NCBI GenBank assembly: GCA_014190535.1
Contig: BJGO01000005.1
Span: 1-33,095, forward strand
DNA: 33,095 bases
Source of the DNA: Bacteroidota bacterium
GTDB lineage: Bacteria > Bacteroidota > Bacteroidia > Chitinophagales > UBA10324
Reading direction: 5' to 3'
Shown: positions 740 through 32,112 of the stretch, one piece after another
Position numbering within the stretch: position 1 is the first letter of the stretch
Layout: each line of letters opens with the position of its first letter
The notes under the pieces: model-generated
Told to the model about the DNA's origin: nothing
Seen by the model: the letters and a program-made list of their open reading frames with translations, nothing else
Databases searched by the model: none
Position numbers and translations under genes: made by a program

Positions 740-3631
740 TTATTGTATAACTATTTTTCCGTGTCTCATGTCGTGGCCTTCATATAACTTGATCAGATAA
801 ACTCCGGATGGCAGATTATGATCCAATACAATTTCCCGGTCAATGATTCCTTCTTCAACGCTGACATTTTGGTAATACAGCAACTTACCTACGATATCCG
901 TTATGACAACATTACAGGTACTATAATTCCAATGTTCAGCATATAAATTAAACCGGCCCTTATTAGGGTTAGGATATATCGTGAGTGGGTTTTCCAATAT
1001 TGGATCGGTCTCTTCATCAGCAACCAGTTCATCCATTCGATTTATATTGTTAACTGTAATTTCTGATGAGAATGGTGAAAAGGTATTTGATGTGCATTTT
1101 GTTCTGATGCGGACTTGGTAAGCCACACCAACTTCAAATGTTTGATCAATGATATTTTTTGAGCAACACGAACTGCTGTTCACCGCAATCGTTTGCCAGT
1201 TATTCGTTCCTGCTTTTTTATATTGAATACGGTACTGAACTGCCCCTGAAACCGATTCCCAATTGACAACAAGTTTATTGGCCGCAGTAAAAATAGCTTG
1301 AAGATTTGATGGAGCCTCACAGGAACTGATGGTCAAAAATTTGATGATATTTGACTTTATACTATTTGCTGGCGTATTGCCCGAACAAAATGTTTTAAGC
1401 TGAACTTCATAATCGTGACCGGGAACCAAGCCGGTAAGTGTCGTGGATATTGCGGGGGCATTTACAGTTACAACTTTCTCAATATTAGTAATTAAGTCTT
1501 TGTAAAATACCTTAAAGGTGCTGGCACAGGTATTGGCATCCCAATTAATGGTTGCTTTGTTCTTTGTAATGCCTGTGGCTTTAGCTAGATAGGTTACCGG
1601 ACAACCACAGGTTGGCGCTGAGCATCCATCAGAGGACAGCATTTCTTTTCTGAATCCATTTACAGGATCAAATAACGCCAATGCTCTTTCTTTCTGCCCT
1701 TCTGTTAATAATGCAATACATTCATCTTTATTATAATTCATGATGTTATTGGTCATAGTGCCGTGCTTATATGGTCTGTAGGCATCTATAAGCTGTGTAG
1801 CCGTACAAAAAACCAATCTGTCGCCTCTAACATCAACCCCGGTTACACTATTTGACGTAATCGAAGGATGCAAGGCTGTAGGTATAACTTTAGTGAATAG
1901 CTCAGGTGTGGATTCATCACCGGCATTCTGTAAACTATCCGCATGAAAAACTATTAGTCCATTACCTGCACCAACATAAATGTCGTTGTTATTTAGGGTA
2001 AACATCGTATTTCGATTTACAGCTTCCCCTACACTAAATGCAGTTGAGTTGTTTGGGTTTATTCGCCAGGTGAATGTGCTGTTGTTATCGAATACTTTTA
2101 TGCCTATACCTGAATTAAATCCAACCCATACTCGCCCCTGATCATCGGTCGTAATTCCTCGTATAAGAAAGTTATTACCAAACTCAGCAACGATATCATC
2201 GAGGCTCAAATTTGTACAAACACCATTTTGTAATTTAATGATATAAGGATTGTCACATCCGTTATTGCAACTTTTATCTACACCGAAATAGGTTACCTGA
2301 TTGATTTTATCTCTGTGTGATATGAGAAAACGAATATCGGTGGCAATTTGGGGATAGCAGGCAGTAGCCTGTGGTATATAGAAAGGAACTGTAATTAATC
2401 CGGCATCACCCTGATCGGTATTACCCGCAGTTAAACTCTGACCATTTGCTATCCAGGCATCATTATTTTCATCTATAGAAATGTCATTTACAAATCTTGA
2501 GTTTAATCCATCGGAGTTAGAAAAGAAATTATTTTCGACTAGTGAACTTTGATTAGTTGTTGGCTCAAAAATATAGACTCCTCCTGCTGTAGCTAATGCG
2601 CCCTCTTTGCCCGCTGCAATCCAAATCAAACCCGATTGATCAATCTCTATATCCCTGATTTGATAATCTTGTAAAAATAATTCAGAGGGGAAATTTCCAA
2701 ACTTGTATCTAAATCCTGAATTCTGAGTTCCGAATAAAATATTGTTATCATCGGTAATACGAACATTTCTTAACCCGGTACCTGATTCTAGTATTCCATT
2801 GAACGTACATCCCTCAACCTCACCCTGAGGACAATTAAACTGAGCACCCGCTTGAACCGGCGTATCATCAACTTCATCTGAGGAGCAAGGATTTACACCA
2901 AAGGTGTGTATCAAACTCATCCAATGACCAATCTCATGGCTGGCAGCAACCCCTAAATTAAACGTTGGCAATTCAGATCCTATTCCGAATGCGATATATT
3001 CTATTACCGGACCATCCTTGATGAACTCGTTCGTTGATCCCGGCACCAGGTTGAGTCCTATCGTGGATCCATCGATTTCCGGAACCACATACAGGTTAAG
3101 ATAATGAAGCGGGTCCCATTGTTTTGAACCCTCAAGTTCGGTTAACCACTTACCTGAAAGATCGCCAATGAAATTACAATTAGGTACTTTTTTTCTGATA
3201 ATGCCGGTAGTAGGCCCGCCGTCGGGATTTCTGGAGGCCAGACAGAACTGTATATCAAAATCTGCGGCAGCATTGGATTTGTAAAAAGGATGTGTTGTTT
3301 CAATTCTCGGATTTAATTTATTGTAATCCTGATTTAAACCTTCAAGTTGAGATACTATTCGTTCATTAAGAATATTAGCCTCCGGTACGGCATCACAATA
3401 AAGCACGTGTACGACAACAGGTATTGTAATGATATTACGTGAGCCGTTTTTACCTCTATTCTCTTTAATAATATGTTGAATTGTTTTTTCAAATTCCTTG
3501 TGCCATAACTCATATTCCGGCTTGCCTATTTGCTCGCGAATGATCTCATCTACACCGCAAGGCTGTTGTTGTTGTGCGTTAAGTTGAAAACCAGCAACAA
3601 CCATTAATAGTAAAAAGAATAAATATTTCAT
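740..3631 (-). CDS. Secreted M43 (pappalysin/cytophagalysin-like) metalloprotease with beta-propeller-like insert, two FN3 domains and T9SS type A sorting domain
   Basis: Signal peptide; zinc motif HEIGHWMSLIH; DDTPVQ; Met-turn NNIMNY followed by LLTEGQKERAL; FN3-like CEAPSNLQA...; C-terminal YPNPNKGRFNLY...GVYLIKLYEG tail. Confidence 0.88.
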   Translation of the reverse strand: MKYLFFLLLMVVAGFQLNAQQQQPCGVDEIIREQIGKPEYELWHKEFEKTIQHIIKENRGKNGSRNIITIPVVVHVLYCDAVPEANILNERIVSQLEGLNQDYNKLNPRIETTHPFYKSNAAADFDIQFCLASRNPDGGPTTGIIRKKVPNCNFIGDLSGKWLTELEGSKQWDPLHYLNLYVVPEIDGSTIGLNLVPGSTNEFIKDGPVIEYIAFGIGSELPTFNLGVAASHEIGHWMSLIHTFGVNPCSSDEVDDTPVQAGAQFNCPQGEVEGCTFNGILESGTGLRNVRITDDNNILFGTQNSGFRYKFGNFPSELFLQDYQIRDIEIDQSGLIWIAAGKEGALATAGGVYIFEPTTNQSSLVENNFFSNSDGLNSRFVNDISIDENNDAWIANGQSLTAGNTDQGDAGLITVPFYIPQATACYPQIATDIRFLISHRDKINQVTYFGVDKSCNNGCDNPYIIKLQNGVCTNLSLDDIVAEFGNNFLIRGITTDDQGRVWVGFNSGIGIKVFDNNSTFTWRINPNNSTAFSVGEAVNRNTMFTLNNNDIYVGAGNGLIVFHADSLQNAGDESTPELFTKVIPTALHPSITSNSVTGVDVRGDRLVFCTATQLIDAYRPYKHGTMTNNIMNYNKDECIALLTEGQKERALALFDPVNGFRKEMLSSDGCSAPTCGCPVTYLAKATGITKNKATINWDANTCASTFKVFYKDLITNIEKVVTVNAPAISTTLTGLVPGHDYEVQLKTFCSGNTPANSIKSNIIKFLTISSCEAPSNLQAIFTAANKLVVNWESVSGAVQYRIQYKKAGTNNWQTIAVNSSSCCSKNIIDQTFEVGVAYQVRIRTKCTSNTFSPFSSEITVNNINRMDELVADEETDPILENPLTIYPNPNKGRFNLYAEHWNYSTCNVVITDIVGKLLYYQNVSVEEGIIDREIVLDHNLPSGVYLIKLYEGHDMRHGKIVIQ

Positions 3632-3688: not shown

Positions 3689-5338
3689 CTAGTGATATGT
3701 TTTCTTTACCATCTTCAGGGTTAATAAATTGAGTGCATTGGGTGATAATCCAACAATATTATGCTGTACGAAGTCTAAGGTTTCATCATAGTACAAAGGA
3801 ATGAGTGCCTGCTCTTCAGAAAGTATACGGTCCATATCCATATAGGTCTGATATCGCAAGGTATCGTCAGATTGCATCATACTCAGGTTATATTTAACAT
3901 CGAATTCCCTGTTTCTGAATCGGGTGTAATTCGGCGGGGCCGCATACCCACCATAGCAGACGGCAAGAAAACTTTCCGGATCGGGATAATCGGCAATCCA
4001 CGAGGCTTTGAAAAGTAACACATCACCCTTTACCATCCGCTCATTTAATGCTTTCCCCTGCATCACCTCTACACGCATAGTAATACCGGCCTGTTTTAGC
4101 TGATTGGCAATAAAAAGACACAAGGCCTCATTGGCCGAATTACAGGCTACTACGATTTCAGGGAGCGGATGCGTTGCATCATATCCACTTTCCTTGAGCA
4201 GAGCTCGTGCCGCATCAACATCATAAGCATCAACAGGCAACTGCCCGGTCCGATATCCGGCAATACCGGGAGCCACAAAACCATGTAAAGCGGGCAGGCC
4301 AACACCATTTCGCAGATAAGTAATTAGTTCCTTTTTATGGATTGCTTTATTGATAGCTTTTCTGATACGCACATCGGCAAGGGGGCTATTCGTTTTTGAT
4401 GCCAGTTCCAGATTAACACCGAAATACTCGGTATTTAAATATGGCTTCCTGATTAGCCGAAACCTATTCTGATAGGGAGCCCTAAGTTGACCTGACTTGG
4501 TAAGCACTTCATCTTTAAGTCCGGCGTCCAAATCAACAATTACATCCAACTCATTCAGTTTGAATTTTAAAAACTCGGTTGCCTTACTGTCAATAAATGA
4601 AATACGCACGGCATCGAGATATGGTAAGCGATTGCCCTGTTGATCCCGTTCAAAATAATTCATATTTTTTTTGAGCACCATTAACTCGCCTTCGCGCCAA
4701 AAACTAAATCGAAAAGGGCCTGTGCCAACGGGATGCGCTCTGAACTGTTTTCCATACTTCTCCACGGCCTCTTGAGGCACAATAAAGCAATACTGCATGG
4801 TAAGAATACCCGGCAAGGCCGGGAAGGGACGCAATAAACGAATCTCAACGGTTGAATCATTCAGCGCAACAAAGGGGTGCGTTGGATCAACTTTATCATT
4901 AAAGACCCAGGCACCTTTTGCCGCAGTCTTCGGATCGATCAAACGTTTGAATGAGTAAACCACATCGCCGGCATTAAATCGTCGGCCTTTATGTGACGCA
5001 AAACAGGAGTCATCGTGAAAAAACACATCCGTGCGCAAGTGAAAGGTGTAGCGCTTTCCATCGTCGCTTATCTGATAGGAACGCGCCAGAGCGGGTATTA
5101 CATTCAGATTGCTATCTGTCTCCAGCAGTCCATTGTAAATCTGATTGACCACCCAGATATTGGATTGCAAACTGGCAAAGGCCGGATCGGTAGAACTTAC
5201 GCCTGATGCCTGATTATAATTGAATATGTGGCGTTGATCGCGCCACGCATCATTATGGCATGCGCAGAAGAGCAAGGCCAAAAAACAGAACAGGTAGGTG
5301 TAGTGTCTATACTTCAATGCCCGTAAATCTAATGACAC
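3689..5338 (-). CDS. ABC transporter substrate-binding lipoprotein, family 5 (OppA/DppA-like)
   Basis: Lipobox-like LFCAC; YEFKR-type features (GDVVYSFKRLIDP, HPVGTGPFRF, DVRIRKAINKAI, LIPLYYDETLDFV). Confidence 0.92.
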   Translation of the reverse strand: MSLDLRALKYRHYTYLFCFLALLFCACHNDAWRDQRHIFNYNQASGVSSTDPAFASLQSNIWVVNQIYNGLLETDSNLNVIPALARSYQISDDGKRYTFHLRTDVFFHDDSCFASHKGRRFNAGDVVYSFKRLIDPKTAAKGAWVFNDKVDPTHPFVALNDSTVEIRLLRPFPALPGILTMQYCFIVPQEAVEKYGKQFRAHPVGTGPFRFSFWREGELMVLKKNMNYFERDQQGNRLPYLDAVRISFIDSKATEFLKFKLNELDVIVDLDAGLKDEVLTKSGQLRAPYQNRFRLIRKPYLNTEYFGVNLELASKTNSPLADVRIRKAINKAIHKKELITYLRNGVGLPALHGFVAPGIAGYRTGQLPVDAYDVDAARALLKESGYDATHPLPEIVVACNSANEALCLFIANQLKQAGITMRVEVMQGKALNERMVKGDVLLFKASWIADYPDPESFLAVCYGGYAAPPNYTRFRNREFDVKYNLSMMQSDDTLRYQTYMDMDRILSEEQALIPLYYDETLDFVQHNIVGLSPNALNLLTLKMVKKTYH

Positions 5339-19271: not shown

Positions 19272-22200
19272 TTAGTCTCTGTTTAATACCAGACGGTTCA
19301 CATATACGTTGGTTCCAACGTGTACACGAACAAAGTAAACACCTGATGCTACCGCGTTATCCAGTTGTATGCCTTCGATAAGATTACCGCCCGACATATT
19401 GCTGATTTGTGTCACCAGTGACTGACCCAGGGCATTCATCACTTCGATGCGTACTTCCTGATCACTTAAGTCACTGCTGTTTATGGCAACAGAGAAATTA
19501 CCGGTTGATGGATTCGGGAACACATTGATGCCTTCACCCTGCGGGCTAACGGATTCAACGATTTCACCGGCCTCATCTTCACGGCAACCGGGACCACCGG
19601 TAGTGAAGGTTACGATAGGCGAAGCCGGAGACAGGTAACCGTTACACGATACAGACTGCGCAAAAATATTGTACGCCGTATTTGGTGATAACCAGTTAAT
19701 CACTTTGAAATAGTTGGCACCAACAGGATAGGCATTGTATGCAGTCTCCGTGGTTTTCTTGATGTTAATAAAGTAACCCAATACACCAATACAGTTCGAC
19801 TCATTCCAGGAGAATGTACCGCCTAGGCAATTGATAGTGCTCATGATCGGATTAGAGATCGCTGAACAAGCCGGCTTAACTTCTACAAGCTGAACCGTAG
19901 CATTTGGCGATGCCACATTACCTGTGCACAATGAACGTACATATATTTCCCAGATACTTCCTGCAAGACTTGAACCGATACTTAAGTTTATACTTGGTGA
20001 TGATACACTGTACGAAACACCTGCTGTTTGTGTAGGGAATATACGACGGAAACGTACTTCGTAAGTACCCGTAGGTGATCCGCTTAATCCCGTAACACTC
20101 ATCTGATTAGGACAGTTGGAAACAGCCGTAAATGTTGGAATTGGACAGCTATTTACCGGGTTGAGGGTTACATAGGATATGCTACTTGGATCGCCCAGAG
20201 CCGTTGCATTGGAAGGACAATTGTTTACCGCTACATATACGGCAATCGTATTTCCTGCATACAGTGTAGAAGCTACTGCAGAGGTAAGCGTTTTGGTTGT
20301 ACCTGCCGTATCGATAAACGACCAGCCGGCACCTAACTGCATGTTTCTCCAGTAAACGCGGTATGTTGTAGCTCCCGCAACAGCATTCCAGTTTACTTTG
20401 AATCCGGGATTTCCTAAAGCATCCGTTGCATTTACCAGCGAGGTAATCGTTGGTTTAGCGCACAAGGTCTTAACACTCGAAACACCCGGGCTGGTACCGG
20501 AACACACCGGAGAAGCCAGCGTAACCGTTACATTCAGATTCGTGTTCGGTGTTAAACCGGTAATGGTATAGTTATTTGTTGTTACCGCCGCGGCAGAACC
20601 ACTGCCCGCTCCGGTCCAGTTTAGGTTGTACTGTCCGGAACCGAACGGTGACCAGGTTACGGTTGCCGTGGTTGAGGTTACACTGGTAAACGTAACAATC
20701 GGTGTAGCACTTACCGCCACCACTGCTGTGGTCGATGATACGCTGAAGCAGTTATTCGCTATGGAGATGCAACGGTAATATTTTAAGCTGTTCCCATTGC
20801 CCGCTGTGGTCAGATAGGTATTCGCCGTGGCTCCGGCAATATCCGTAAAGCTGATATTATCGGTTGAAATCTGCCACTGGAAGAACCCTACGCCACCCAC
20901 ATTGGTGAGTAAACGTGTACCGCCGGTACAGATTACTGATGAAGCCGGTGTTACGTTACCCCCCTTAGGCAGTGACGCTACCGGTACAATGGCATTGGCC
21001 GCACACGAAGTGCCCGATAATTGTCCGGTTACCGTATAGAATACCACATCACCGCCTGTAGTGGCTACTACTGCCGATCCGCTGGTTTGACTCAATCCGG
21101 TAGCAGGTACCCACGTATAGGTGCCGGTACCGCCTGAAGCCGTGAGCGTATTGGTAATACCCGTACACACAGCATTGGGTGGCGTAACGGTTAAGGACGG
21201 CAACGGCATCAGGAATATCGTGTACTCTTCCAGTTCACCTCTGCGGTACGTATTCATCGTAGAGGCATTCTTGTTCCAGCAGGTAATGGAGTTTATGGCC
21301 GAGGTACTGTCCACACACATCACGCGCATTGTTGCCTCTCCCGTAATGTTATCATCCGGATCAACCGATGAACACGGTATGGTAATGTTAAAGGTATGTA
21401 CCTGTGCGGCTGAACTGGATTTGTATAATAATTCTGTAGTGCTGAATTCGCCATCAACATCGGAGTCGAGCCATACTGCAACCTGCAGGGGCTTGTTCAC
21501 CGCATTCTGATTCATATTGACTACCATCTGATACGTTTTACCGCGGTTCAGTGGTGTAGATATGCTTCTGAAATCCTGATAGCCTACCGGCTTGTTGATG
21601 GTGAGCGACGGATTGTTTAATAAAATGGTTGCCCCATCGTTGATTCGTACATTGCTGATGACATCGTTGTTATCAAATGTATTGGTTGTTGTACCAAAGC
21701 TTGATGCACAACGTAATTTCACCAGAGCCACATTACTGTATGCTACCGGACATCCGCCATTTTTGTAAACACCACGCACATATAGGTATGGTGAGCTGGG
21801 GTTAACATTAATAATTGCTTTGTTAGGATACGTAATATAAGTCCCCAGTGAGGTGGTAAAGTTGTCGGCTGAATATTCCCATCCAAGACGAGTTCCAACA
21901 CCCGGATCTTCCGTGATATCAATTTCACCGTTTACAGCCTGCTCGGTTGGTAATATGGTGGTAATGGTTCCCGGCAGTGTTGCGTTCAAACAACTGCTGG
22001 CCTCCACCTCAATATTATAATCTTCCGATTCGCCGTTTACATAATTTAAACCGGTGCTCAAACATGCATCGAGGGCATTAGTCGTATTAGAAGCACGAAC
22101 GCGCATACGCACTAAACCTAAGTTTGCTGTGGCCGGAACATTTATAAGGAAGTACACCGGCTGACTGTTTGATGTAGCCTGCATACCTACCTGTTCTCCG

Positions 22201-25200
22201 GCATCGTTAAAGTCGTTGTCGCCATTCCAGTCGATCCAGGCGCCGATGTTATGCGTGCCGGGATTGGTTCCGGGAACAACTTTTAACCAATATGGCGCGC
22301 CCTGCTGTACGATTCCTTCGGTTACCGTAGTAAAATACTGATAGAAAGGTGCTGTGGTATTGGCTCCTGAGGTATTGGATAAACCACTGTTTTCCAATTC
22401 TACACTGCTAATGAAATAGCCGTTGCTCGTACCGGTGGTAAACGATGGCTGACAACCGCAGAAAACAGAACTTACATTAAGCGTGGAAGAATAGTCGAAA
22501 AGACCGGAGTTCACGCAGGTGATCCGTCGTCTGTATTGTGAGGTTGGTGTACCGGGAGGTATGTTTACATTTAAGGTCAGAAAGGTTGCACCAAGAACAT
22601 TGGTCCATCCTGAACCGGTATTGCGCTCCCACTGATAGCTCAGCCCTGTTTGGCCGGCAGATGCTCCGGTTACAGAAAGTACAAAGGGGGTTCCCTGACA
22701 TGGATTGGGAATGGAGCTGACTGTAGTACCTCCGGTTGGTGTGCCGGAACAAACCGGAAGCACACTGATCTGAATACCGTAGTCTTCGGTTTCGCCGAAA
22801 TACACCGCCGAACACGCATCGGTCCAGGGATTCGATGGCAGAGGAATACCCTGACACGGATCCGCTATGCGAACACGCATACGGGTATAAGGTGCCGGTG
22901 CGGTACCTGCCGGTATCGTTACATTAATGATACGGATATTGTTTGCCGGACCTGTGCCTGCGGGAATACCGCAATATGAAGTAAACTGTACCTGACCCAT
23001 CCATTCTCCCGGATCATCAAAGTCGGCATCGGTATTTAAATCTACCCAAACCGATGCACGCTCGCCGGTGTAAGGGCCACATTGAATTTCTACCGGATAC
23101 GTGGTGCCAATATTTAATATGCTTACCGGTGCGGTTGGCGTTCCGGTATTGGAATAACGGAACTGATCGGATGTTGAGGTACGGGTATACCCGTTGAAAC
23201 TCACGCGATCGATACGGTCGGCCGAGTTATCGGTCATAACCGGTGTGCAATAACAATTTACGAAGCTGGGATTACCCAATACCGTAATGGGCGTGGAGTA
23301 TGCCTCCTGACCGCTGATCGTACACGTGGTGCGGCGACGGAACTGATACGTTCCACCAAGTGGCACGCCGCTATAGGTTGCATTAACCAAGGTAGCTCCC
23401 GGCATGTCGTTCCAGGTAATACCCGCATCGGCACTCATTTCCCACTGGAAGCTGATGCTACCATTGTTCGGGAACGTTTGTGTAGATAAGTAAATAATCG
23501 AGGACGGACACACATAGTTGGTGCTACCGAACGATGTAGAAGGTAATAGCTGAGCAGGAGTGATGATGTATGTACCCGTACCGCCTGTACCGGTGCCCAG
23601 CGCTGTAACGGTTGTTCCAAAAGCCACATTAGGTCCATCGAGGAACATACCCAATGCAACCTGACCCGATGTGATACCGGATACCGTTAATACAGAGCCC
23701 GCGCCGGTGATTGAGGTGCTGGCAAAGGCATGAGGTGCACTTAAGGTGTACACGCCGGCCTGTCCCGGAGTGCCGGATACCTGAGCAATAATTGCTGTTC
23801 CGGGCGCAATACCGGGGCCTGAAATGGTGCCCGGTGTATTTATATTTATTGGCCCGTTGGTTAATGCCGTTACCGTTAACACGTTATTGGCACCGGCAAC
23901 GGTGATACTTGGCGTATTGTGTGAATTACTGATGGTATAGATACCGGTACTGCCCGCACCGCCACTCACCTGTGCGGTGATGGTGGTACCCGGCGTTATT
24001 CCGGCTCCGCTCAGGTTCATACCCACGGTAAGCGCTCCGGATGAAATAGCCGTAACACTCATCCGGTTACCGGAACCGCTAATCGTTGTGCTCGCCACTA
24101 ACTGAGTACTGCTGATGGTATAGGTGCCGGTGCCACCGGTGCCGGTGCCCAGTGCCGTGATGGTTGTGCCCGGTGCAATACCTGCGCCGGTAATCGACAT
24201 TCCAACCCCTATGTTATTATTTCCTGCTGATACCGCCGAAACCGTTAAACGGGTTCCGGAACCGGTAATTGTAGTACTTGCTATGGTTTGTGCATTGTTT
24301 ACCGTGTAGGTTCCGGTGCCACCGCTACCGGTGCCCAGTGCCGTAATGGCTGTACCGGCCGAAATGGCCCCACCGCTGAGCAGGGTACCCACGGCCAGCG
24401 GTGCTGAACCGCCGGTTACGGCTGTAATCGTTAATGTGGTTCCGGATATGGTTCCCGTATAGGTTCCGCCATTGATGGTTCCGGTAAAGGTAGCGCCGGT
24501 ATTAGCGGTAAATATGGCGCCGGCTCTTGCGGTAATGGATGGGCCGGTAATGGTTCCGGTAAAAGTTGTGGCCGAAAAGTCAAAACCGGTAGATGTACTG
24601 CCGGCTAAGGTATTACCCCCGCCGTCGGGTGCGCCCGAACAGGCTACCGATGGCGCTATGATCACTTTATAGTCTTCTACCTCTCCGTAATTATACTGCG
24701 CTGTACACGCCGGATTGGCAACCGTTAGGTTGCTCCAGGTATAACGTATTCTCATTTTGGTTGTGCCACTCAATGCTGTGGGCGGCACGTTTATAAGGCC
24801 GCAGAATTTATTGTAGGGAACCGTAGGCGTACCGCATTCGGTAAGCTGTACACGCTCCGATACATCAAATATGGCATTCTGATTATAGTCGATCCAAACC
24901 CACACCTGTACACCCGGGAAAGGCGAGGTGGTTTCTACAGTTATAGGAAAACTTCCGTTGAGCGATACGTTTGCCGCTGTACCGGAAAAGTAATCGGTAA
25001 AGCCGGCAAAACCACTTACATTATTGATGCCGGCAAAAATAACGCGGCTCATGGTTCCTACACCACCGGCTCCGGTATTTGTAGGCGCACAATAACAACT
25101 GGTAAAGGCTACCGGATTAACCGTAAGTGCCGTACTGGTTGCTGAGGCGCCGTTACCCACACACGAAACGATGACCCGATACTGAGTGGCTACACCCGTA

Positions 25201-26048
25201 TAGGCTATGGTTAAGCTGGTGGCATTGGTACCTTCGTTGGTCCAGCCGGCCGAGTTTATATTACGTTGCCACTGATAGGCAAAGGCACTACCCACCGATG
25301 CTCCGGTTAAGGTAAGCGCCACGTTGGAATTAATACAAGCCGTTGCCGGGCCGGTTACGGTACCGGCTACCGGGCCACCCATCGGGCAGGGCTGATTGGT
25401 GAAACGAATGGAAGGGCGTAGATTAAACACCACACCGCCCGTGCTACTGCACACGCCGGTAGTCGAGTTGTCGGCAAATTCGCGACGACCTACCGTAACA
25501 CCGATATTACTCTGACCAACGGTGGGGAAACTGGTGGTGCTCTGGAGCGTTGCCACATTCGTATTACTGTTAAAGCAGATTTCTACCACAATACCGTTAT
25601 TTACGGCCCGGTTAAACGTGCTTGAAAAAGATATCGTGTGCCAGCCGGTAGCCGAGGGGCCGTTGGCGCTATTGATGTTACCATTAAACACCAGCGTGGA
25701 GGCGCCCGTGACCCAGCCGCCGCTCAGGTTGGCTACCGTGGTATTGTACAGGCGTATGGTGTATCCGTTAAACGGATTTGTTGCACCATTCCATCCATTC
25801 AGGTTATCCACGAAAAACTGCATCGATGTAATGTTACCTGCCGGAACTCCTGCGGCATTCAGGTCTGCATTGGTGTAGAGGAACTGAACGCGTTGCGCTT
25901 CAGCCTCCAGGCAATACGGATTGGCACGGCCATTCAGGCTCGTGGTCCCTGTACCTATGGTCCAGGTTTGTGCCTTGAGGTTCGTAGCCAGTAATCCCAT
26001 AAGGATTATCAGGTACAATGAAATGAATCGGGTAACATGTAGTTTCAT
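19272..26048 (-). CDS. Giant secreted GEVED/Ig-like/FN3 multidomain protein with T9SS type A sorting domain (ORF extends to 26132; probable start M29)
   Basis: Signal peptide [27 protein letters not shown] then TWTIGTG; four GEVED-like modules ([36 protein letters not shown]) with DxNxDxDFxDxGE loops; C-terminal [11 protein letters not shown]...[11 protein letters not shown]...RLVLNRD. Confidence 0.92.
23527..24449 (-). repeat. Five ~61-aa (~183-bp) Gly/Thr-rich tandem protein repeats inside the giant protein
   Basis: Units such as [62 protein letters not shown]; the [11 protein letters not shown] core recurs, with degenerate units in the middle. Confidence 0.9.
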
Positions 26049-26172
26049 ATAAAATGGATTTAATTGTTTTACTTTTTTGGACAATACAGGCACCCTATTA
26101 CTGAAAGAAAATGATTTTGTTGCGGCCTGCATGGGGTATATCTTGTTTGGTTTTACGGTTAATTACGAAAAG

Positions 26173-26385: not shown

Positions 26386-29300
26386 TTAGTCTCTGCTGAG
26401 TACCAGACGGTTCACATATACGTTCTTTCCAACGTGTACACGAACAAAATAAACGCCTGATGCTACGGAGTTATCCAGTTGTATGCCTTCGATGAGGTTA
26501 CCACCGGTCATATTGGTAATGTTAGTTACCATGATCTGACCAATAGCATTCATTACTTCGATGCGTACTTCCTGAGCACTTAAATCGTTGCTGTTAACCG
26601 ATACGGAGAAGTTTCCGTCCGTTGGATTCGGGAAGATGTTGATGCCTTCGCCGTGCGCATTAACCGCTTCAACAGTTTCAGCTTCTTCTTCACGACAACC
26701 AGGTCCACCGGTAGTGAACGTTAAGATTGACGATGCAGGAGAGATGTACCCATTGCACGATACAGAGCTAACATAAATGTTGTACGCTGTATTTGGTGTA
26801 AGGAAGTTGATCACACGGTATGTGTTTAAACCACCTGTTGGGTATGCACTGTAGGCTGTTGCTGTAGTCTTCTTAATGTACATATAGTAACCGGTAACGC
26901 CCACGCAAGTGGTTGGGTTCCAGCTAATTGTACCTCCAAAACAGTTGATAGCACTGATTAATGGGTTAGATAATGACGGACAAGCCGGCTTAACTTCCAC
27001 AATCTGTACAGGGCTGTTTTCAGAGAACGTAGGACCAGTACAAACCGACTGCACATATACTTCATATACAGAACCGGAGTTTTGTGAACCGATGCTGATA
27101 TTGAACGTAGGTGATGAAACCTGATAAGTTACAGACGATGTAAAGCTTGGGAAAATACGACGGAACGAAACACGGTAGTTACCCGTTGGTGAACCGCTTA
27201 ATCCGGTAATGCTTAACTGGTTAGGACAGTTTGAAACCGCAGTAAACGTTGGTGCAGAACATCCGCTCAATGGTGGTACTGCAATGTACTGGATGGTACT
27301 TACATCACCAAGTGCGGTTGGGTTAGAAGGACAGTTGTTCACGGCTACATAAACCGCCCACGTTGAGTTAGGCGCGGCATTAACCGGTAAGGTTTTAACG
27401 GTGCCTCCTGTAGTGTCCACAAATGCCCAGCCGGCGTTGCTGTTCATGTTACGGTAGTAAATACGGTAGCTGGTAGCACCTCCAACGGCAGTCCACGTAG
27501 CACGAAGCAATTTGTTGCTTGTAGTCGCCTGTGTAATTGCGGTTAAGCTCAGGCCTGTAGGTTTAGCACATAGTGTTTTGGTTGTGGCTGTACCGGGGCT
27601 TGTACCCACGCAGGTTGGTGTGTTTAAGGTAACGGTAACGTTCAGGTTGGTGTTTGGTGTTAAACCACTCAATGCAAAGTTATTGGTGGTTACCAAGGTC
27701 TGAGAGCCGGTACCGGCACCTGTCCAGGCAATGTTATACTGGCTTGGTCCAAATGGTGTCCAGGATACGAGCGCACTGGTTGAAGTTACGTTGGTAATGC
27801 TCACAATCGGTGTGGATGAAGGGCTAACTACAGCTGTAGTAGACGAGATGTCGAAACAGGCTGAAGACGATGCAATAACACGTACAAAAGTAGTGGCCGT
27901 GATGTTGGTTAAGTTGAATGTGTTGTTGGTAGCACCGACAACGTTAGTCCAGGGGCCTGTTGCACTTGACGCGGTTTGCCACTGCAGGTTACCTGCAGTG
28001 CCTGTAGCCGTAAACAATCTAGCCGTACCGCTACACACTACAGACGAAGCCGGAGTTGCATTACCACCTATAGGTAAAGTAGCCGCGGCAAAGGTCTGCT
28101 GAATGGCACATCCTGTACCTGCCTGCGTACCGGTAACGGTATAGAATTGCAGGGTAGGAATGTTGTTAACCGTAATGGTAGTGCCGGTAGTAGCACTGAT
28201 ACCGGTAGCAGGAGCCCAGGTATAGGTACCTGTTCCGCCGCTTACCGTAATCGAACCACCCGCAGGCACACACACCGCATTTGGAGGTGTTACCGTTAAG
28301 TTTCCAAGTGGTTGAATATCCACTGAATACTCTTCAATTTCACCATAACCCTGAGCAGTAGTTGTACATGCATTAGAGTCGATAGGTGTACCGCTGAATT
28401 TAGTCATTACACGTAACACAGCCGGGCCAATATAGTTATTAGCCGGGTTGGTGTTTGAACAAGGAACAGTAATGGTAAATGTTTGTGCGGTAGTTAAGGC
28501 TGTGGTTGAACGAGCGCACATTTCATTGTTTTGGAAAGTACCATCGCCATTGAAATCAATCCACGCGGCTACGTGTTCAGACCAATTGCCCTGAGGCGTA
28601 ACACGCAATTCGTATTGTTTACCACGCTCAATGTCGGCAGAAATGGTTTTAAAGTTCTGATAGCTATCCGGATCAACAGGATCAACGGTAGAGTTGTTGT
28701 CGAACAGGGTAGTTAAGGCCGGCAGGGTACGTAAACGAACATTGGTGATGTTATCGTTATCGTGAGCACCTTGGGTAATGTTTACGGCGCAATCCGTTTT
28801 TACAAAAGCTACGTTAGAGTTGGCAACCGGGCAACCTTCGTTCTGATAAACCGCACGTACATACGTAAACGGATTAGGGTTAACCAGTAAGTGAATAAAC
28901 GGAGCCGGGTTAGGATAAGCGGCAAAGCTTCCAGCAGGGGCTGTAGCAAAATCGTCGAAAGAGAATTCCCAACGGATAAGCGTACCATCACCACCGGAAA
29001 TGGTTGGCGTTACTACGTCGTTATTGGTGGTAAAGGTAGGAGTAACACCGCTTAAGTTACCGGCAACCGAACCACCTGCAGGGCAGTTTACCGGACCAAC
29101 CTGAATCTTGTAATCTTCCGTTTCACCATTCACATAGTTGGTACAAGGATCGAGGAATGCAAACGGATTGGCACCGCTCACGCGGATACGCATACGCGTA
29201 GTACCTAACGTAGCTCCTACAGGAACCTGGAAGAGAGCATTCACCACGCCACCGGCACCGGTACCACCGGGAGCCGTTGTAAAGGTAGGTGACATGAGGT

Positions 29301-32112
29301 TTTCGCCGGCGTCAACAAAGTCGCCATCCTGATTCCAGTCGGCCCAGGCGCCATAGTAATGTATGCCGGCACCGGTACCGCTGTTGAGGCGTAACCAGTA
29401 ATAAGCACTGCGCGAAGCGTTGGCAGAAAACGAAGAGTCTGTATAGTTAGCATAGGCCGGAGCGGCACCAATGCCACCGGTAGTATTGTCGAGGGTTCCA
29501 CCTTCAACACGTACGCGGCTAACGAAGAAAGCGCCGTTACCCGATGTAAATGACGTTGCGCAATAGCAAATGGTACGGGCTACAGTTACCGCACTGGAGA
29601 ATGACGTATCTGAAGTGTTGGTACAAACAATACGACGACGGAACTGCACGCTCAGCGGATCGGAAACCGAATAGGTAAATCCGTTAAGGGCCAAACCGTT
29701 ACCGCCGGCGATATCGATCCATCCGGCACCGTCGTTACGTTGCCACTGATAAGCTAAACCGCTCACACCGGTAGTAGAACCGGTTACCGTTAAGTTAAAT
29801 GGAATACCGGTACAGCCGGTGCCCCCTACCGAAGATACCGCAGTACCACCGGTTGGCGCCGCCGAACAGTTTGGTATCACCGCAAGCGTAACAAAGTAAT
29901 CTTCTGTTTCACCAAAACCGTAGGTCGTACAAGGTGATATTGAACTTGTTGCAAACACCTCACGAACACGAAGGCGTGTAACTCCCGCAACCGCAGTTGG
30001 CGGCACAGTAAAGTTTACCGTTGCGCTGGCAGAGCCTGCCAGGCCGGTTACTTCACCTAATTTTTCACCGGCGTCGTTAAAGTCGCCGTCCGCATTAAAA
30101 TCGATCCATCCGGCAAAACCATTGGAGCTTGTCCAGGTACCAACCTGTACAATAAGGTCGTACGCAGCGCCAATATCTAATGAAGTGGTAAGGTTAGCCG
30201 GAGGTGCCGTAAATAGGGTGAAGTATGGCGCAGTAGTGTTCTGACCGCTATTGAGGTTCGTTAAGGTATTTAACGTAACGCTGTTTACGAAGTCGCCGCT
30301 TGGCGCGTTGGTATATGTAGGTATGCAATAGCAATTGGTAGCCACATCGTTATTTAAGGAAATGGTATTGGAATTATTTCCTAAACCGCTTGGGGTACAC
30401 AATGTATAAATACGGTATTGTGTGTTTTCTGACTGACCGGTAACGGTAACGCTAGCAGAAGTAACCGAGCCGGCAGCCACGGTGATACCGCCTGCAGGCA
30501 GGTTGGTCCAGCCGCCAAGGGTGGCATTATTGGCCTGCCACTGATAGGATATACCGGGCGCCTGAGTTAGGCCTGTAGCCGAAAGGGCGATATTAGTAAA
30601 TGAACAAACAAGCCCGGCAGGACCTGAAGCGGTACCGGCACTTGGCGTGCCACTACAAGGAGGTGTAGCAATGATGTTTACGCGATAGAGTTCGGCTTCA
30701 CCCCAGGTAAAGGTGCTGGCGCAAGGCAAATTGGCATTCGGGAAACCCTGTTCAATATTTTTTACCAACATACCGGTAATACCGAGTGTTGCGCTACCGG
30801 GTATGGTGATGGTTCCGGTTTGTGTGCCAGGTCCAAAAAGTGCTGTCGGGCTGTTGTAAACCTCCTCACCGGCGTCGTCAAAGTCGCCATCCTGGTTAAA
30901 ATCGATCCACATTTTAAAACCGTTGGTGTAAGTACCAGAGGCGATAATAGATGTAAGTGAAATATTGTAGGTGGCACTCTGACCTAAATCGGGCACCGTT
31001 GCCAGGTTGGTGTAGTTCTGATACTGATTGATTAAAGATGGCGTACCGGGAGCTGTAGAAGCCGGAGAGGCCAGCGTAGTGGTATTGTTGAGGGTAATGG
31101 TTTGCCCTACAACCGTTACGTTTCCGAGATCTTCGTCAGCTACAGAAGTAGCACCACCATAAGGAGGCGCACTGGCTGAGCAATAGCAGGCCCAGAATGG
31201 AGACATAGCTACCGATACCACATTGGAAACAGCGCTCAAGCCACTTGGCGTACATAATGTAAAAATACGGTACTGGGTAGCCACCGTTTGTGATACAACA
31301 GCTGAAGCTGAAGTTGCAGCGGCAATGTTGTTCCAGGTGGTTCCGCCATCGGTAGAGCGTTGCCAGTTGTAGCCGATACCGCTACCAGTGGTTAAGCCGG
31401 TAGCTGATACTGTAAAGTTAGCACCGGTACAGGCGCCGCTCGGGCCTGTAGCGGTACCGTTATTGGGTGTGCCGACACAGCCGCTCAGGCGAATAAAGCG
31501 CGCGTTAGGGCGTGTAGTTGTGGTAATGGCAGTCGAAAGACTACTGGCACAAACCCCTGCGGCATCAGCGCGGTATGTGCGGCTGGTATTTGCAGGCAAA
31601 AGCGTAGTTTGGCGAACAGGTACGTTGTTTGTAAATCCTGTTCCTTGAACGCACACTTCTACGATAATGTTTGAAGTTCCGTCCCAGCTGAACGCACCAA
31701 GCGTAAAGTCTTTCCAGCCGGCAGCTCCTGCTGTGAAATTGGCTGGACCATATACTAATGTCATTCCTGTTTCCCAGGCGGTTAATGCTCCGGTAGCAGA
31801 ATTTTTCAAGCTTATAGTAAAGTTTGGTTGAACGTTATTATTCAAAGCAGTTGATTCCCAACCAATCTGAGAAATGGTACCGGCGGTCATTCCCGCAGCG
31901 GTCAGTTCAGTGGCTCTGTATATAAACTGTTGACGAGCACCCCAGTAATAGTTACCCCAAACGCAGGGGTAGCCTGTTGTTGTACTGGCACCTATTCCCG
32001 TTCCTATAGTCCATGTCTGTGCCATAGATTCGGTAAACAAGCCCGTTATCATAAGCGCCACAAGAGCTACTAAGCTCAGCGCTTTTTTTGTTGATGTATA
32101 AATCGTATTCAT
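26386..32112 (-). CDS. Giant secreted GEVED/Ig-like/FN3 multidomain protein with T9SS type A sorting domain; tandem paralog of the gene at 19272..26048
   Basis: Signal peptide then QTWTIGTG; four GEVED-like modules (WGEAELYRV, FGETEDYFV, NGETEDYKI, YGEIEEYSV); C-terminal FPNPTDGNFSV...[24 protein letters not shown]. Confidence 0.93.
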   Translation of the reverse strand: MNTIYTSTKKALSLVALVALMITGLFTESMAQTWTIGTGIGASTTTGYPCVWGNYYWGARQQFIYRATELTAAGMTAGTISQIGWESTALNNNVQPNFTISLKNSATGALTAWETGMTLVYGPANFTAGAAGWKDFTLGAFSWDGTSNIIVEVCVQGTGFTNNVPVRQTTLLPANTSRTYRADAAGVCASSLSTAITTTTRPNARFIRLSGCVGTPNNGTATGPSGACTGANFTVSATGLTTGSGIGYNWQRSTDGGTTWNNIAAATSASAVVSQTVATQYRIFTLCTPSGLSAVSNVVSVAMSPFWACYCSASAPPYGGATSVADEDLGNVTVVGQTITLNNTTTLASPASTAPGTPSLINQYQNYTNLATVPDLGQSATYNISLTSIIASGTYTNGFKMWIDFNQDGDFDDAGEEVYNSPTALFGPGTQTGTITIPGSATLGITGMLVKNIEQGFPNANLPCASTFTWGEAELYRVNIIATPPCSGTPSAGTASGPAGLVCSFTNIALSATGLTQAPGISYQWQANNATLGGWTNLPAGGITVAAGSVTSASVTVTGQSENTQYRIYTLCTPSGLGNNSNTISLNNDVATNCYCIPTYTNAPSGDFVNSVTLNTLTNLNSGQNTTAPYFTLFTAPPANLTTSLDIGAAYDLIVQVGTWTSSNGFAGWIDFNADGDFNDAGEKLGEVTGLAGSASATVNFTVPPTAVAGVTRLRVREVFATSSISPCTTYGFGETEDYFVTLAVIPNCSAAPTGGTAVSSVGGTGCTGIPFNLTVTGSTTGVSGLAYQWQRNDGAGWIDIAGGNGLALNGFTYSVSDPLSVQFRRRIVCTNTSDTSFSSAVTVARTICYCATSFTSGNGAFFVSRVRVEGGTLDNTTGGIGAAPAYANYTDSSFSANASRSAYYWLRLNSGTGAGIHYYGAWADWNQDGDFVDAGENLMSPTFTTAPGGTGAGGVVNALFQVPVGATLGTTRMRIRVSGANPFAFLDPCTNYVNGETEDYKIQVGPVNCPAGGSVAGNLSGVTPTFTTNNDVVTPTISGGDGTLIRWEFSFDDFATAPAGSFAAYPNPAPFIHLLVNPNPFTYVRAVYQNEGCPVANSNVAFVKTDCAVNITQGAHDNDNITNVRLRTLPALTTLFDNNSTVDPVDPDSYQNFKTISADIERGKQYELRVTPQGNWSEHVAAWIDFNGDGTFQNNEMCARSTTALTTAQTFTITVPCSNTNPANNYIGPAVLRVMTKFSGTPIDSNACTTTAQGYGEIEEYSVDIQPLGNLTVTPPNAVCVPAGGSITVSGGTGTYTWAPATGISATTGTTITVNNIPTLQFYTVTGTQAGTGCAIQQTFAAATLPIGGNATPASSVVCSGTARLFTATGTAGNLQWQTASSATGPWTNVVGATNNTFNLTNITATTFVRVIASSSACFDISSTTAVVSPSSTPIVSITNVTSTSALVSWTPFGPSQYNIAWTGAGTGSQTLVTTNNFALSGLTPNTNLNVTVTLNTPTCVGTSPGTATTKTLCAKPTGLSLTAITQATTSNKLLRATWTAVGGATSYRIYYRNMNSNAGWAFVDTTGGTVKTLPVNAAPNSTWAVYVAVNNCPSNPTALGDVSTIQYIAVPPLSGCSAPTFTAVSNCPNQLSITGLSGSPTGNYRVSFRRIFPSFTSSVTYQVSSPTFNISIGSQNSGSVYEVYVQSVCTGPTFSENSPVQIVEVKPACPSLSNPLISAINCFGGTISWNPTTCVGVTGYYMYIKKTTATAYSAYPTGGLNTYRVINFLTPNTAYNIYVSSVSCNGYISPASSILTFTTGGPGCREEEAETVEAVNAHGEGINIFPNPTDGNFSVSVNSNDLSAQEVRIEVMNAIGQIMVTNITNMTGGNLIEGIQLDNSVASGVYFVRVHVGKNVYVNRLVLSRD

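Follow-up and report, generated by a model that had tools for sequence, protein, structure and literature searches.

A Reg_prop propeller within the catalytic domain of a predicted type-IX-secreted pappalysin-family metalloprotease

In M43 metalloproteases the zinc motif and the Met-turn normally lie a few tens of residues apart, as the earlier note on this DNA had stated; we measured 50-67 aa from the HExxH motif to the Met-turn in those uninterrupted relatives whose Met-turn was recognized by a motif scan. One gene in the 33,095-nucleotide stretch of Bacteroidota DNA analyzed here (the window) raises the question of whether a single enzyme can be built from elements that are much farther apart. 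In its 963-aa product, the zinc helix HEIGHWMSLIH and the Met-turn NNIMNY are separated by approximately 390 aa. The earlier note had proposed that a beta-propeller is inserted between them, in the active-site cleft.

The 963-aa protein is read as a single open frame, without a stop. A Pfam search, which the earlier note had recommended, returned Peptidase_M43 (PF05572; 36.1 bits against a cut-off of 23) and Reg_prop above its cut-off. The M43 match ends at position 120 of the 152-position profile because the insert begins there. The T9SS sorting domain TIGR04183 scored 34.3 bits against a cut-off of 23. By these profile matches, 740..3631 encodes a metalloprotease of the pappalysin family (M43) that is secreted by the type IX system. 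The features of the gene and its upstream neighbor are as follows.

740..3631, minus strand: gene for the secreted M43 metalloprotease with its insert, 963 aa (open reading frame; Pfam Peptidase_M43, Reg_prop, fn3 and Por_Secre_tail)
3575..3631, minus strand: putative signal peptide, aa 1-19, MKYLFFLLLMVVAGFQLNA (read by eye from the sequence)
3554..3559, minus strand: candidate cysteine-switch motif Cys25-Gly26 in the pro-segment (conservation; CG motif of promirolysin, PMC6949598)
2804..3124, minus strand: Pfam Peptidase_M43 match, aa 170-276
2906..2938, minus strand: extended zinc motif HEIGHWMSLIH, aa 232-242 (sequence; alignment)
2807..2905, minus strand: first part of the zinc-to-Met (ZnM) loop, aa 243-275, with Cys249, Cys267, Cys275 and DDTP (alignment; mirolysin disulfides)
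1766..2806, minus strand: inserted Reg_prop beta-propeller, aa 276-622 (profile and fold matches; repeats)
1637..1765, minus strand: C-terminal subdomain of the protease, aa 623-665 (HMM test; second ulilysin segment)
1733..1750, minus strand: Met-turn NNIMNY, aa 628-633, followed by Asp636, Cys638 and LTEGQKxR
1052..1585, minus strand: two fn3-like domains, approximately aa 683-763 and aa 773-860 (Pfam fn3 in two stretches; fibronectin matches)
746..979, minus strand: Por_Secre_tail, T9SS type A sorting domain, aa 885-962 (Pfam; TIGR04183)
3689..5338, minus strand: gene for an SBP_bac_5 (OppA-like) lipoprotein, 57 bp upstream of the protease

The OppA-like lipoprotein gene, on the same strand, is a possible operon partner of the protease, and its position would fit peptide scavenging by a protease and peptide-uptake unit. 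Elsewhere in the window, two adjacent genes on the minus strand (19272..26132 and 26386..32112) encode giant proteins of 2286 and 1908 aa, each with four GEVED stretches, fn3 domains and a T9SS tail; they likely arose by tandem duplication. The 2.6-Mb draft genome contains 140 matches to the T9SS type A sorting domain (the protease and 139 others), a very heavy investment in secretion.

We compared the protein with its solved and uninterrupted relatives. Phmmer searches against solved structures recovered ulilysin (E 1.1e-35 for the whole sequence), aligned to the protein as two pieces corresponding to aa 22-275 and aa 623-664, and also found mirolysin. The zinc motif at 2906..2938 and NIMNY (aa 629-633) at 1733..1747 lie where the earlier note had placed them, and the Met-turn match lies 397 aa beyond the HExxH histidine, compared with 443 aa in a paralog encoded on contig C68 of the same genome. 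An uninterrupted second Met-turn soon after HEIGHW would have argued against a split domain; none occurs in the stretch that joins the zinc helix to the insert, aa 243-275 (TFGVNPCSSDEVDDTPVQAGAQFNCPQGEVEGC). In the uninterrupted relatives, the Cys275 equivalent is separated from a GxMxxNxM strand by a few loop residues, and just those are replaced. In the alignment, the junctions of the insert are clean and fall in the ZnM loop, between zinc helix and Met-turn. The propeller thus sits between the two motifs as the earlier note had said, although its span is narrower (1766..2806, aa 276-622) than the 1760-2938 first given.

The inserted block was also taken to be a propeller from its repeated strands, and this identification held. 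The insert alone matches Reg_prop at 28.5 bits (Pfam cut-off, 20.4). A profile built with six relatives of the insert matched the HTCS propellers 4a2l (E 2.8e-39), 3v9f and 3ott, as well as PorZ (5m11; E 3.8e-9). The predicted fold of the insert (pLDDT 67, pTM 0.75) gave the same HTCS structures as its best matches, with E-values down to 3.4e-9. Seven repeat units can be read by eye, beginning at aa 286, 324, 380, 432, 489, 538 and 595 with a spacing of 38-57 residues. By profile and predicted fold, then, the insert is a Reg_prop beta-propeller, with a blade count of seven as read by eye. Together, these alignments and profile matches support one M43 catalytic domain that is split by an apparently complete Reg_prop propeller, in an inserted rather than an appended topology.

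The assembly is a draft of 261 contigs, and the gap could in principle reflect an assembly chimera, or a chance Met-turn-like motif, with no genuine split protease at all. We built an HMM of the Met-turn subdomain from 22 uninterrupted M43 proteins only, leaving out the window protein and its paralog. This model matched aa 624-655 at 28.7 bits, far above the 4.2 bits or less obtained with 1000 shuffles of the same sequence. The reading frame is continuous across the insert, and the GC content of the insert is not distinct from that of its flanks. Moreover, the independent contig C68 (L045:2559-5321) encodes an M43 protein with the same split that is 28% identical to the window protein over most of its length. 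The paralog, the shuffle test and the single open frame together rule out an artefact or chance motif for practical purposes, and we give that explanation almost no weight. A recent foreign insertion was rejected as well, since the GC content resembles that of the flanks and the paralog suggests that the insertion predates divergence of the two proteins.

In the M43 tree, the C68 and window proteins are sisters (support 100/99), with long branches leading to both. The C68 protein is the one homolog with the same split architecture that we found, a search that the earlier note had also called for. Its gene lies downstream of one for a repeat-rich protein, the C-terminal end of which resembles a gliding-type sorting domain.

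If the catalytic elements that must meet are separated by an insert, then the protein may no longer be an enzyme: display of the propeller could be what is selected, with the protease fold retained as a scaffold. The active-site residues argue against this possibility. His232, Glu233, His236 and His242 are invariant in all 24 aligned sequences, and Met631, Tyr633 and Asp636 are kept in the window protein, the paralog and nearly all of the 22 uninterrupted relatives. An equivalent of Cys25 is found in 20 of those 22, the remaining two being gapped at that position. Thus, the zinc ligands, the general base (catalytic Glu), the Met, the Tyr switch, the S1' Asp and the pro-segment Cys are retained in both split paralogs. 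Identity between the two paralogs is 35.6% before the insert, 27.6% inside it and 47.5% after it, so the post-insert subdomain of the protease is better conserved than the propeller. As judged from these residues, the 397-aa zinc-to-Met span is a departure from M43 in architecture and not in catalytic motifs. The AlphaFold2 model of aa 20-680 has a mean pLDDT of 65 and a pTM of 0.55, with much of the N-terminal catalytic part confident; this part is ulilysin-like (Foldseek E 2.4e-16), and the alignment of the low-confidence model covers approximately 225 columns and does not cross the insert. The model shows neither the packing of the Met-turn nor the orientation of the domains. On balance, we consider it improbable that the protein is a pseudo-protease.

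The cysteines indicate how the propeller may be attached. In promirolysin a CG motif blocks the zinc, and mirolysin has disulfides C243-C271 and C262-C291 (PMC6949598). By analogy, the disulfides of the window protein would be C249-C275 and C267-C638, and the correspondence therefore implies that the propeller stalk would leave a disulfide-pinned loop. The paralog has a Tyr aligned to Cys638 and lacks the Cys267 partner, changes that are consistent with the loss of one disulfide.

We then surveyed relatives of the protease and of the propeller. The source genome has seven M43 matches, one of which, on contig C76 (L046:3547-7026), is an intact M43 domain followed by a propeller, fn3 domains and a T9SS tail; its appended propeller can be aligned with the window insert along most of its length. 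The nearest propellers outside the source genome are in G081, one genome of the same order. Here the same propeller subfamily is C-terminal on two M4 thermolysin-type proteases (L078:2143-5253 and L079:984-4235), which points to one module common to unrelated secreted proteases. In two further large G081 proteins the propeller is at the N-terminal side, and one of these reads like an alpha/beta hydrolase, without a Pfam match for it. The propeller tree, in which long branches meet, does not reject a clade of the window and C76 propellers and gives no direction from appended to inserted or the reverse. No further close members were found in approximately 400 genomes each of the order, class and phylum. 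HTCS-like sensors in G849 and G928 proved to be ordinary relatives.

Searches for other split M43 proteins were likewise negative among the matches to the M43 profile in G081 and in 15 genomes of the same family, in an order-wide long-profile search that scored the best two candidates per genome, and among relatives fetched from genome contigs. The one early-stopping match from the same-family genomes and G081 that starts near the N-terminal end of the M43 profile was a 292-aa frame. Viral contigs and plasmids gave partial matches only, to the N-terminal protease part. The split is rare in our sample, because these genome searches yielded no further split member.

What might a propeller do at this site? 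In human PAPP-A, the ZnM loop extends the lower cleft by ~20 Å, and cleavage of IGFBP-4, the main substrate, requires several residues of this loop (PMC9579167). Because that loop follows the lower cleft rim, a propeller rooted in it is expected there. The idea that the propeller is inserted into the active-site cleft is accordingly revised: insertion into the M43 domain stands, and the site is instead the disulfide-pinned loop that lies at the lower cleft rim in PAPP-A. We envisage that the chain forms the N-terminal subdomain and exits below the cleft into the propeller. It would return next to the exit point because the ends of a propeller meet, and would then complete the C-terminal subdomain; the enzyme would therefore fold as one metzincin. 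The propeller would hang from the lower side of the cleft, the primed one, and would most likely serve as an exosite, docking certain substrates, whether protein or glycan-bearing, and restricting others. Cys25 in the pro-segment probably silences the zymogen until export, and the C-terminal domain would direct type IX export and surface attachment. Since the PAPP-A loop is needed for substrate cleavage, we infer that substrate docking or gating is the best reading of the propeller's role. On the whole, we think that the protein is probably a type-IX-secreted pappalysin in which a propeller in the ZnM loop forms part of one fold, most likely as an exosite that docks or limits substrates.

The main rival to an exosite is a role of the propeller as a tether or adhesin, binding cell-wall, glycan or matrix ligands simply to position the enzyme, with its site an accident of domain tolerance. 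Propellers of the same type are merely appended in the C76 protein and in the G081 M4 proteases, and the role may therefore be a position-independent, generic binding function; the two large G081 proteins carry them as well. The closest solved relatives of the propeller, moreover, are the ligand-sensing HTCS domains and PorZ. However, a 347-aa domain should hardly be neutral for substrate access, because in PAPP-A, a related enzyme, the cleft is bordered by the ZnM loop, and the inserted arrangement has been kept despite the strong divergence of the two paralogs (28% identity). We therefore regard a tether as possible but rather unlikely and continue to favor the exosite.

Comparison with known systems places the architecture among other modified peptidases. 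The M43 proteases ulilysin and mirolysin (PDB 2cki, 8cdb and 6r7u) share the pro-segment Cys, zinc motif, DDTP loop, paired cysteines, Met-turn, Tyr switch and FTxGQ helix with the window protein. In contrast, their catalytic domains are uninterrupted, and the aligned chains lack a propeller, fn3 domains and a T9SS tail. In the metzincins MMP-2 and MMP-9, the catalytic domain contains an insertion of three fibronectin type II repeats, which serves as a substrate-binding exosite. That insertion precedes the zinc helix, and the module and the family are both different. PAPP-A (pappalysin-1) is a pappalysin with modules inserted in its catalytic domain, and its ZnM loop, at the rim of the cleft, is enlarged to 63 residues and important for cleaving substrate (PMC9579167), but its inserted modules are LNR repeats of ~30 residues above the cleft, and there is no separate domain in the ZnM loop. 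Leishmanolysin, an M8 metzincin, also keeps its active-site geometry around an insertion in the zinc-site region, although this segment of 62 residues is much smaller than a propeller and is located between the Gly and the third His, outside the zinc-to-Met loop (PMC5572447).

Prolyl oligopeptidase family S9 likewise combines a beta-propeller with a peptidase, and there the propeller caps the active site and regulates access to it (PMC12871690). Unlike the window protein, these are serine peptidases of another fold, and the propeller is the S9 cap domain rather than Reg_prop. The HTCS propellers (BT4663 and BT4673) and PorZ have Reg_prop repeats and are the nearest solved profile relatives of the insert, the HTCS propellers being nearest by fold as well. 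Their solved chains, at 737-795 residues, are about twice as long as the insert, and they come from sensors or from a component of the T9SS rather than from proteases. A literature search that could not reach most subscription papers and preprints found no M43-propeller insertion. Both building blocks are known families, and it is the combination and the insertion site that appear to be unreported.

Metzincins share a conserved core made up of the zinc helix and the Met-turn, and the insertions that we found on record are short loops or lie elsewhere in the domain. Here, a full domain is tolerated in the core of two diverged paralogs, and a third copy carries the same propeller type in appended form; together they are a natural experiment in the wiring of recognition modules to a protease. 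By analogy with S9, a propeller grown from the ZnM loop might set selectivity; this would make the enzyme a propeller-gated metzincin convergent with S9, and the loop a point of module exchange in secreted Bacteroidota proteases, a proposal that we offer tentatively. The ZnM loop may also be a site for specificity engineering.
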